This document shows, piece by piece, positions 31,619-33,609 of a stretch of DNA of 64,000 bases (position 1 is the stretch's first letter; every line of letters starts with the position of its first letter). A program made the position numbers and the translations under genes. The notes beneath the pieces were generated by a model that saw nothing but the letters and a program-made list of their open reading frames with translations, did not search any database and was not told the DNA's origin. This DNA comes from Chrysogorgia sp. JL179-B06 (Eukaryota; Cnidaria; Anthozoa; Scleralcyonacea; Chrysogorgiidae), in the NCBI GenBank assembly GCA_035772405.1, contig JAYKKM010000415.1:567001-631000 (forward strand), given 5' to 3'.

Positions 31619-31677
31619 GTACAATATCTACAGACACGTGTTTCGCTGTTCCACAGCTCATCAGTGTAGCTTGGTAC
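31619..31677 (-). ncRNA. Type I hammerhead ribozyme, copy 1
   Basis: Minus strand, 5' to 3'. Outer stem I is GUAC (31677-31674) with GUAC (31622-31619). An internal loop CAAG/AUAUU follows. Inner stem I is CUACA (31669-31665) with UGUAG (31632-31628). The core CUGAUGA is at 31664-31658. Stem II is GCUGU/ACAGC closed by a GGA loop, then GAAA (31644-31641). The very short stem III comes from the palindrome ACACGUGU. The cleavage triplet is GUC, with predicted cleavage between 31633 and 31632. All invariant core bases are present. A two-base loop cannot close stem III in a monomer, so cleavage is expected mainly in dimeric form, as known for short-stem-III hammerheads of retroelements. Confidence 0.93.
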
Positions 31678-31898
31678 AATCTAGATATGGACATGAGTAC
31701 TAATTATACACAAACCATTGCCAGAGACAACCGCTTGTGGGATAAACAGCGGTCATGCGCACATCCAGAGAGCGTGAAGCGGTATAGGGCCAGAGTGCTC
31801 AAACTACCACAAGGGTAGTGGGCGTTGCATTATCGCTAAAGGACACCTACACCAACTTCACAGAGTGCTCAACAACACCGGAGTGAAGGAGCGTAATA

Positions 31899-31957
31899 GT
31901 ACAATATCTACAGACACGTGTTTCGCTGTTCCACAGCTCATCAGTGTAGCTTGGTAC
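31899..31957 (-). ncRNA. Type I hammerhead ribozyme, copy 2
   Basis: Identical to copy 1. Predicted cleavage between 31913 and 31912, giving a 280-nt spacing. Confidence 0.93.
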
Positions 31958-32179
31958 AATCTAGATATGGACATGAGTACTAATTATACACAAACCATTG
32001 CCAGAGACAACCGCTTGTGGGATAAACAGCGGGTCATGCGCACATCCAGAGAGCGTGAAGCGGTATAGGGCCAGAGTGCTCAAACTACCACAAGGGTAGT
32101 GGGCGTTGCATTATCGCTAAAGGACACCTACACCAACTTCACAGAGTGCTCAACAACACCGGAGTGAAGGAGCGTAATA

Positions 32180-32238
32180 GTACAATATCTACAGACACGT
32201 GTTTCGCTGTTCCACAGCTCATCAGTGTAGCTTGGTAC
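32180..32238 (-). ncRNA. Type I hammerhead ribozyme, copy 3
   Basis: Identical core and stems. Predicted cleavage between 32194 and 32193. Confidence 0.93.
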
Positions 32239-32459
32239 AATCTAGATATGGACATGAGTACTAATTATACACAAACCATTGCCAGAGACAACCGCTTGTG
32301 GGATAAACAGCGGTCATGCGCACATCCAGAGAGCGTGAAGCGGTATAGGGCCAGAGTGCTCAAACTACCACAAGGGTAGTGGGCGTTGCATTATCGCTAA
32401 AGGACACCTACACCAACTTCACAGAGTGCTCAACAACACCGGAGTGAAGGAGCGTAATA

Positions 32460-32518
32460 GTACAATATCTACAGACACGTGTTTCGCTGTTCCACAGCTC
32501 ATCAGTGTAGCTTGGTAC
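32460..32518 (-). ncRNA. Type I hammerhead ribozyme, copy 4
   Basis: Identical core and stems. Predicted cleavage between 32474 and 32473. Confidence 0.93.
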
Positions 32519-32739
32519 AATCTAGATATGGACATGAGTACTAATTATACACAAACCATTGCCAGAGACAACCGCTTGTGGGATAAACAGCGGTCATGCG
32601 CACATCCAGAGAGCGTGAAGCGGTATAGGGCCAGAGTGCTCAAACTACCACAAGGGTAGTGGGCGTTGCATTATCGCTAAAGGACACCTACACCAACTTC
32701 ACAGAGTGCTCAACAACACCGGAGTGAAGGAGCGTAATA

Positions 32740-32798
32740 GTACAATATCTACAGACACGTGTTTCGCTGTTCCACAGCTCATCAGTGTAGCTTGGTAC
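32740..32798 (-). ncRNA. Type I hammerhead ribozyme, copy 5
   Basis: Identical core and stems. Predicted cleavage between 32754 and 32753. Confidence 0.93.
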
Positions 32799-33019
32799 AA
32801 TCTAGATATGGACATGAGTACTAATTATACACAAACCATTGCCAGAGACAACCGCTTGTGGGATAAACAGCGGTCATGCGCACATCCAGAGAGCGTGAAG
32901 CGGTATAGGGCCAGAGTGCTCAAACTACCACAAGGGTAGTGGGCGTTGCATTATCGCTAAAGGACACCTACACCAACTTCACAGAGTGCTCAACAACACC
33001 GGAGTGAAGGAGCGTAATA

Positions 33020-33078
33020 GTACAATATCTACAGACACGTGTTTCGCTGTTCCACAGCTCATCAGTGTAGCTTGGTAC
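33020..33078 (-). ncRNA. Type I hammerhead ribozyme, copy 6
   Basis: Identical core and stems. Predicted cleavage between 33034 and 33033. The extra TA of this unit lies outside the ribozyme. Confidence 0.93.
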
Positions 33079-33301
33079 AATCTAGATATGGACATGAGTA
33101 CTAATTATACACAAACCATTGCCAGAGACAACCGCTTGTGGGATATAAACAGCGGTCATGCGCACATCCAGAGAGCGTGAAGCGGTATAGGGCCAGAGTG
33201 CTCAAACTACCACAAGGGTAGTGGGCGTTGCATTATCGCTAAAGGACACCTACACCAACTTCACAGAGTGCTCAACAACACCGGAGTGAAGGAGCGTAAT
33301 A

Positions 33302-33360
33302 GTACAATATCTACAGACACGTGTTTCGCTGTTCCACAGCTCATCAGTGTAGCTTGGTAC
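33302..33360 (-). ncRNA. Type I hammerhead ribozyme, copy 7
   Basis: Identical core and stems in the last, partial unit. Predicted cleavage between 33316 and 33315. On the minus strand this is the most 5' ribozyme of the array. Confidence 0.93.
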
Positions 33361-33513
33361 AATCTAGATATGGACATGAGTACTAATTATACACAAACCA
33401 TTGCCAGAGACAACCGCTTGTGGGATAAACAGCGGTCATGCGCACATCCAGAGAGCGTGAAGCGGTATAGGGCCAGAGTGCTCAAACTACCACAAGGGTA
33501 GTGGGCGTTGCAT

Positions 33514-33609
33514 TATATATATATATATATATATATATATATATATATTATATATATATATATATATATATATATATATATATATATATATATATATATA
33601 TATATATAT
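33514..33609. repeat. (TA)n right of the hammerhead array
   Basis: About 47 TA units with one phase slip, starting exactly where the last unit breaks off after GGGCGTTGCATTA. Confidence 0.97.

Follow-up and report, generated by a model that had tools for sequence, protein, structure and literature searches.

A tandem retrozyme array in the anthozoan Chrysogorgia sp., probably inserted at a (TA)n tract by Penelope-like machinery

We analysed a window of 64,000 nucleotides from the anthozoan Chrysogorgia sp. JL179-B06 (GenBank assembly GCA_035772405.1, contig JAYKKM010000415.1, positions 567,001 to 631,000), the minus strand of which carries at 31619..33516 an array of 6.78 tandem units of 280-282 bp, here named RZ1. 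RZ1 is almost certainly a retrozyme. In our reading the array is probably one insertion of this non-autonomous element, target-primed in a (TA)n microsatellite from circular or uncut multimeric RNA by the machinery of Penelope-like elements (PLEs).

Results

Hammerhead ribozymes of the RZ1 array

In RNA sense the array runs from 33516 (unit position 65) to 31619 and adjoins a (TA)n tract at each end. These tracts, the presumed target, were delimited with Tandem Repeats Finder (TRF) and a run scan: (TA)20 at 31579..31618 on the 3' side and a tract in two runs at 33514..33608 on the 5' side. An earlier note, made from the letters of the window alone, had placed the array boundaries correctly, leaving the tracts unremarked, and had described seven type I hammerhead ribozymes on the minus strand of a ~280-bp tandem array. 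Both TRF (31616-33516, period 280, 6.8 copies, 99% matches) and a strict descriptor (requiring CUGANGA, GAAA and H17, at least 4 bp in each of stems I and II, and at least 2 bp in a stem III that opens with A-U) bear this description out. The descriptor found exactly seven sites in the window, all in the array and on the minus strand, with the invariant bases complete in 7/7 units; no further site was found elsewhere in the window on either strand, nor any in 150 dinucleotide shuffles of it. From the RNA-sense 5' side, the ribozymes lie at 33311..33352 (cleavage 33316/33315), 33029..33070 (33034/33033), 32749..32790 (32754/32753), 32469..32510 (32474/32473), 32189..32230 (32194/32193), 31908..31949 (31913/31912) and 31628..31669 (31633/31632), the first number of each pair being the last base of the GUC triplet. 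The units measure, in order, 282, 280, 280, 280, 281 and 280 bp, in agreement with the 280-282-nt monomers and the 31633/31632 cleavage position that had been predicted. The last ribozyme is followed by a 14-nt tail 3' of the cleavage site (31619..31632: stem I 3' strand, internal loop and outer stem I GUAC), which ends at the (TA)n junction.

All seven ribozymes read CUACA-CUGAUGA-GCUGU-GGA-ACAGC-GAA-ACACGUGU-C-UGUAG, with an outer stem I GUAC/GUAC across the internal loop. The palindromic stem III of the earlier note is present; within one molecule only 2 bp of it form (A-U and C-G), capped by the palindromic tetraloop ACGU, and the full pairing of the 8-nt ACACGUGU needs two RNA copies. RZ1 has no long open reading frame (ORF): stop-free stretches in a unit trimer reach 96 amino acids at most. 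Neither a reverse transcriptase (RT) nor a GIY-YIG ORF was found in the array, and two PLE proteins gave zero tblastn matches in the window. The GC content of the unit is 47.7% vs 38.3% for the window. A search of IMG/VR with the exact hammerhead gave 0 matches.

Two sets of results weigh against an active ribozyme. The covariance model proposed as a check in the earlier note, Rfam Hammerhead_1, does match all seven units, at 21.8 bits each, below its gathering score of 34; at that threshold Rfam reports zero hammerheads in the window, matches appearing once it was relaxed, so that a default scan misses the RZ1 ribozyme. For the isolated 59-nt strand, the hammerhead as drawn has a free energy of -8.4 vs -11.2 kcal/mol for the minimum-energy fold, and the fold z scores of two other pieces were 0.81 and -0.41; because the lowest-energy fold differs from the hammerhead, the activity is predicted only. 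Such an unfavourable isolated fold and sub-threshold score are what a chance or vestigial motif in an ordinary repeat might give. We find this hardly credible, given the specificity of the descriptor and the identity of the ribozyme from CUGAUGA to GUC in 110/122 full units of 39 loci (see below). In addition, when RZ1, a second family (RZ2, below) and twelve chosen PLE-type hammerheads were compared, the stems were kept through two-sided changes in 7/11 pairs, a count driven mostly by RZ1 and RZ2 and obtained on rows preselected as hammerheads.

A dispersed family

In the genome assembly (781 Mb, 522 contigs), exact matches to the pattern CTGATGA-N8-20-GAAACACGTGTC number 1,738, against 0 for the reversed control, so that the genome-wide search suggested in the earlier note places the array as one copy of a dispersed family. 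A search with the unit gave at least 161 matches, 40 of 1,766 candidates being scored. We fetched 38 loci, the best full-unit matches, which together with the window make 39 loci with 45 chains and 122 full units; chosen in this way, the sample is biased to young copies, which limits what it can say of the family. Loci L068 and L069 have a common flank and are probably a single insertion duplicated with its surroundings. The chains are interspersed and span 0.07 to ~15 units, rather than forming the long in-place arrays of a satellite, and their flanks, read by eye with no dedicated scan for long terminal repeats (LTRs), primer-binding sites (PBS) or polypurine tracts (PPT), were mostly (TA)n. 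The combination of a type I hammerhead, a short stem III and dispersed, non-coding tandem units of a few hundred bp agrees with the metazoan non-LTR retrozymes of Cervera and de la Pena 2020 (PMC7229834) and supports the retrozyme-like reading given from the sequence in the earlier note; among the contexts listed there the retrozyme stands, and satellite and PLE fit worse, with hundreds of sites, retrotransposition-like ends and no long ORF. Hammerhead variants with the same stem III and another loop II, at C8:433545, C20:22159 and C21:906209-1426408, are probably further subfamilies.

One 3' junction in (TA)n

Read in RNA sense, 42/45 chains stop at unit position 278/280, with ...UGUAGAUAUUGUAC (or GUGC), 14 nt beyond the ribozyme cleavage site and abutting (TA)n. 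The three exceptional chains are a break within the L055 array, a fragment of 60 bp in L058 that ends at 127, and L071, an old divergent copy whose alignment runs to 273. The strict 3' signature followed by (TA)5+ was found 42 times, in 37/39 loci, and the two remaining loci reach (TA)n too, L064 with 11 duplicated nt ahead of the tract and L069 with a phase shift. Across the genome, a 20-nt 3' signature occurs in 1,111 copies, of which 542 continue directly into TATATATATA, 389 into the next unit and 180 are unclassified. Short duplications or GAT expansions, resembling slippage at the start of reverse transcription, were seen at 3' junctions of RZ1 and of a PLE-type hammerhead family (L064, L005 and L097).

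The 39 loci contain 145 exact copies of the ribozyme: 139 continue into TGTAG, 6 into one-base tail variants and 0 stop at the cleavage site, which argues for a template joined across that site. Other UAU sites occur in the unit at positions 112, 155, 191, 212 and 273, two of them being UAUA; none of the 45 chains has its 3' end at 112, 155, 191 or 212, and one, the old divergent copy, is aligned to 273. The choice of the junction by microhomology alone was set aside, the longer UAUA sites of the unit being unused as 3' ends in these chains.

No (TA)8+ run occurs in the window outside the RZ1 array; such runs are denser in the outer 500 bp of the other 38 loci, which hold 27 runs of (TA)10+ in 38 kb. 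(TA)n is thus uneven and clustered where such elements lie, and the evidence on which we rely is the exact single junction site, rather than nearness to (TA)n. It counts against the proposed insertion that target-site duplications (TSDs), where both flanks are (TA)n, are indistinguishable from the target and thus unreadable. That RZ1 carries (TA)n along with itself is less likely, because the tract adjoins a tRNA-like element (described below) whether RZ1 directly neighbours it (4 cases) or does not (3 cases, in two of which the locus has RZ1 further off).

Variable 5' ends and uniform arrays

A (TA)5+ run lies within 40 bp of the 5' end in 39/45 chains. The 5' ends themselves vary: among the 35 chains where this end is clear (10/45 were left out), 11 fall in a hot spot at unit positions 60-73, the chance maximum for any 14-nt stretch being 9 in 3,000 trials, and the other 5' ends are spread. 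This hot spot could be a transcript start, an RT stop or a microhomology site. In the 27/45 chains with a clean TA flank, the 5' junction overlaps (TA)n by 1.74 nt on average vs 0.70 nt expected (0/5,000 simulations).

A single haplotype over five diagnostic columns was found in 22/26 arrays of at least two full units (exceptions L045, L052, L055 and L064), compared with 5.1 arrays on average, and at most 12, in 5,000 shufflings of the units. Median divergence amounts to 0 for units of the same array and to 1.1% for units of different arrays, and the 14 units of L043 have no listed differences. This uniformity fits repeated copying of one circle, and we consider a circular RNA template likely. 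Against this, the mean divergences within (1.1%) and between arrays (1.3%) are close, chiefly because L055 is heterogeneous, and growth in place by unequal exchange offers another origin for the arrays. Satellite DNA amplified in this way after single-unit insertions would likewise be homogeneous, its tandem state would be uninformative on the template, and the internal to terminal ratio of 389 to 542 does imply many insertions of about one unit or less. Such an origin nevertheless appears quite unlikely to us: arrays at different sites share alleles, yet differ in unit number and 5' end, 14 units without private changes leave scant time for growth, and dispersal over hundreds of (TA)n sites requires transposition anyway.

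Another possibility is that the same element is target-primed in (TA)n from uncut or partly cut linear multimers, the hammerhead trimming transcripts or being incidental. Ribozyme-dead RNA was inserted equally well in vitro by a PLE protein (PMC11167929), so that uncut multimers could serve as template, which again tells against the circle. The 5' hot spot could be the transcript 5' end, which circles lack, and tandem arrays in (TA)n are also found for the tRNA-like family, in which no hammerhead was detected. However, multimers transcribed from mixed arrays should sometimes be mixed, whereas most arrays are uniform over up to 14 units, and an identical ribozyme is kept in 110/122 full units; we therefore hold a linear template to be somewhat unlikely.

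A second retrozyme and a tRNA-like element

RZ2, a second retrozyme family of 233 bp, was found beside a PLE in L137 (388-899), where it scores 31.0 bits in the Rfam scan, and also in L049, L054, L056, L064, L066, L076 and L133. It has the same stem I as RZ1 and a different body, the best local alignment between the two being a 17-nt motif outside the ribozyme. Its fixed 3' end is UGUAGUUA followed by (TA)n, 8 nt past cleavage. A regular expression found 12 signature copies of RZ2 in the fetched loci, 8 terminal and 4 internal, and 8/8 terminal copies run into TA tracts, one of which is short and runs into RZ1; genome-wide, the 17-nt RZ2 signature has 1,638 exact matches. The motif GAGC[A/G]CTCT occurs twice in each retrozyme at nearly the same places (positions 28 and 98 in RZ1, 32 and 97 in RZ2) and was not found in the rest of the window; it is a possible promoter or protein-binding site.

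The tRNA-like element measures 276 bp and was found in L061 (1-1073), L039, L048, L054, L063, L070, L077 and L078, some copies being called Ala AGC by ARAGORN. It is tandem in places, L061 carrying three full copies, all identical, next to one partial copy, and ends at (TA)n in two positions ~30 nt apart. Neither Rfam nor regular expressions detected a known ribozyme in it. Its middle resembles the Nin domain, and it is possibly a short interspersed nuclear element (SINE) moved by the same machinery.

Penelope-like elements of the same genome

The hammerhead family RF00163 has at least 73 matches in the genome, and 48 regions were fetched (L001-L008 and L079-L118), some with two matches. A (TA)8+ tract is reached within 260 nt in 22/48 loci, and in 16/48 it stands at one of two recurrent sites, 71-119 or 137-167 nt beyond the ribozyme. 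The 3' ends are CTTGAT followed by (TA)n in 11 loci, GTGATGTTT followed by (TA)n in 5, and other places in (TA)8+ in 6. In L001 and L002, neighbouring copies on one contig, a PLE-like coding match at 34% identity is located 650-700 nt downstream of the hammerhead; the other six of the 8 hammerhead loci tried had zero PLE protein matches in the 3 kb tested.

We also sampled 20 copies with a GIY-YIG domain. Their PLE label is based on the Pfam GIY-YIG match (34 bits in L077) and on RT motifs that we take to be of PLE type, Pfam itself finding no RT domain in these copies. A (TA)6+ tract lies within 930 bp downstream in 9/20 copies vs 1/66 window pieces (p 3e-6). This comparison alone does not tie PLEs to (TA)n, because 16/38 outer flanks of RZ1 loci carry (TA)6+ as well, and with such a background only repeated exact junctions count. 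Two were found, ...GATCAATTT followed by ATATAT in L078 and L138, and ...TTTAATTC or TTCAATTC followed by ATATAT in L077, L133 and L134. By eye, a hammerhead-like motif CTGAAGA...GAAA precedes the tract by at most 170 nt in L077, L126 and L132-L134; it is more degenerate in L078, L137 and L138, weaker still in L119 and L129, and antisense in L130. No such motif reached gathering in an Rfam scan of L077, L078, L119, L126, L130 and L133.

The order of hammerhead, fixed tail and (TA)n is thus common to RZ1, RZ2 and part of the PLE-linked hammerhead loci, and this shared layout suggests which enzyme may move RZ1: on these grounds PLE involvement seems probable. Several observations stand against it. 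By script, 24/48 hammerhead loci have no (TA)8+ within 260 nt (L082 is counted here, though a tract follows its second hammerhead) and 2/48 are unclassified; 11/20 GIY-YIG copies have no (TA)6+ tract, the sample being 20 out of at least 150 and including near-identical copies, and their background is shared with the RZ1 flanks, as noted above. Moreover, blastn of RZ1 against 24 PLE-linked loci gave matches of only 13-27 nt and no shared tail.

RZ1 might alternatively be moved by a long interspersed nuclear element (LINE) with a preference for (TA)n, in which case part of the 3' tract might be a repeat tail added by that enzyme. LINEs that target microsatellites exist, as do LINEs tailed with simple repeats, and a fixed 3' end with variable 5' truncation is a footprint of LINEs and PLEs alike. 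On the other hand, (TA)n lies on both sides of most chains, reverse transcription would start inside the unit just past the hammerhead, as in PLEs, and part of the PLE-linked loci share the target and the order (no search aimed at LINEs was made); we regard the LINE as unlikely.

Other features of the window

Between two long arrays of a GCCAGAGTGCCAGTTGG repeat, at 28533-29807 and 35640-37229 and inverted relative to each other, lie the retrozyme and an ORF for an OTU-like protease (30054-30920, Pfam Peptidase_C65 24.8 bits). The flanked region looks like a composite or inverted-repeat mobile element of ~8.7 kb. A tRNA-like sequence on the plus strand (48647-48719; 38 bits vs a gathering score of 29) is possibly derived from a SINE.

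Discussion

From the known retrozyme pathway, we infer that transcripts of the minus strand would self-cleave at every hammerhead into ~280-nt monomers and that these monomers would be joined into circles. An RT/endonuclease acting in trans, most likely that of a hammerhead-bearing PLE, would then nick a (TA)n tract, and the freed 3' end would prime DNA synthesis at the UAU just after the outer stem I strand, 14-17 nt 3' of cleavage, which can pair with a (TA)n primer. Copying part-way or several times round the circle would yield near-identical head-to-tail units, and would stop at differing points, often at a match of a few bases with (TA)n.

The enzymatic part of this proposal follows work on PLEs. 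A purified lizard PLE cleaves AT-rich DNA, and its reverse transcription begins internally, downstream of the hammerhead, at sites that coincide with PLE ends in the genome (PMC11167929). Judged by its genomic footprint, RZ1 appears to share this internal start downstream of a hammerhead at AT-rich DNA, and the footprint would be the trace expected of this enzyme class acting on joined hammerhead RNA. The PAc/Poseidon PLEs (PMC11167929) resemble RZ1 in the succession of hammerhead and fixed internal RT start, in the AT-rich target and in their tandem copies; their optional tail, giving two alternative 3' ends, is a further likeness. The main start site of PAc is an AC-rich stem loop 111-118 bp into the ORF, its hammerhead being cut 26 bp after the start codon (PMC11167929). 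In contrast to PAc, RZ1 is a 280-bp unit without RT or GIY-YIG ORF and with a 14-nt tail after cleavage, and whereas the lizard PLE start site is not homologous to the DNA that is cut (PMC11167929), the RZ1 UAU can pair with (TA)n.

RZ1 is of a kind already known. The non-LTR retrozymes of metazoans (Cervera and de la Pena 2020, PMC7229834) likewise consist of short tandem units (~170-400 nt) without a long ORF, dispersed as multi-unit insertions in genomes that also contain PLEs, and they lack LTRs, as RZ1 appears to do. The GC content of RZ1 is within the limit given in the main text of that paper (<50%) and above that of its figure legend (<45%). Plant LTR retrozymes (PMC4918200) are, in the portion consulted, also non-autonomous hammerhead elements proposed to spread via circular RNA; they are set apart by a type III hammerhead, and are described in PMC7229834 as carrying LTRs, PBS/PPT and 4-bp TSDs and as forming circles of 600-800 nt. 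Hammerhead satellite DNAs of newt, Schistosoma and cave cricket (cited in the same paper) are tandem hammerhead repeats of a few hundred bp as well, whereas the arrays of RZ1 are short and interspersed, have retrotransposition-like ends and lie in one type of microsatellite. The new part is the fixed internal start site together with the (TA)n target, which appears neither in the consulted text of PMC7229834 on metazoan retrozymes nor in passages of a 2020 review (PMC7761336); among open-licence PubMed Central titles and abstract beginnings we found neither retrozymes described as targeting (TA)n nor mention of a retrozyme 3' end that is internal and fixed.

How animal retrozymes return into DNA is the open question on which the RZ1 footprint bears. 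PMC7229834 does not decide whether LINEs or PLEs provide the mobilising enzyme, and names PLEs as a strong candidate because of shared hammerheads, tandem copies and co-existence. With hundreds of insertions, one exact start site and one target type, an arrangement that recurs at part of the PLE-linked hammerhead loci, the suggestion of PLEs becomes a testable rule. We tentatively go further, to an idea that we hold slightly less probable than its contrary, that metazoan retrozymes may be parasites of PLEs: a hammerhead and a few tail bases would suffice for target-primed rolling-circle reverse transcription of a free circle at (TA)n, so that several unrelated circle-derived families (RZ1, RZ2 and perhaps the tRNA-like element) would share a target and a starting rule. 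Insertion in (TA)n could also make retrozyme arrays easy to overlook. RZ1 thus offers a natural system for asking whether an RT copies circular RNA directly onto a nicked chromosome.

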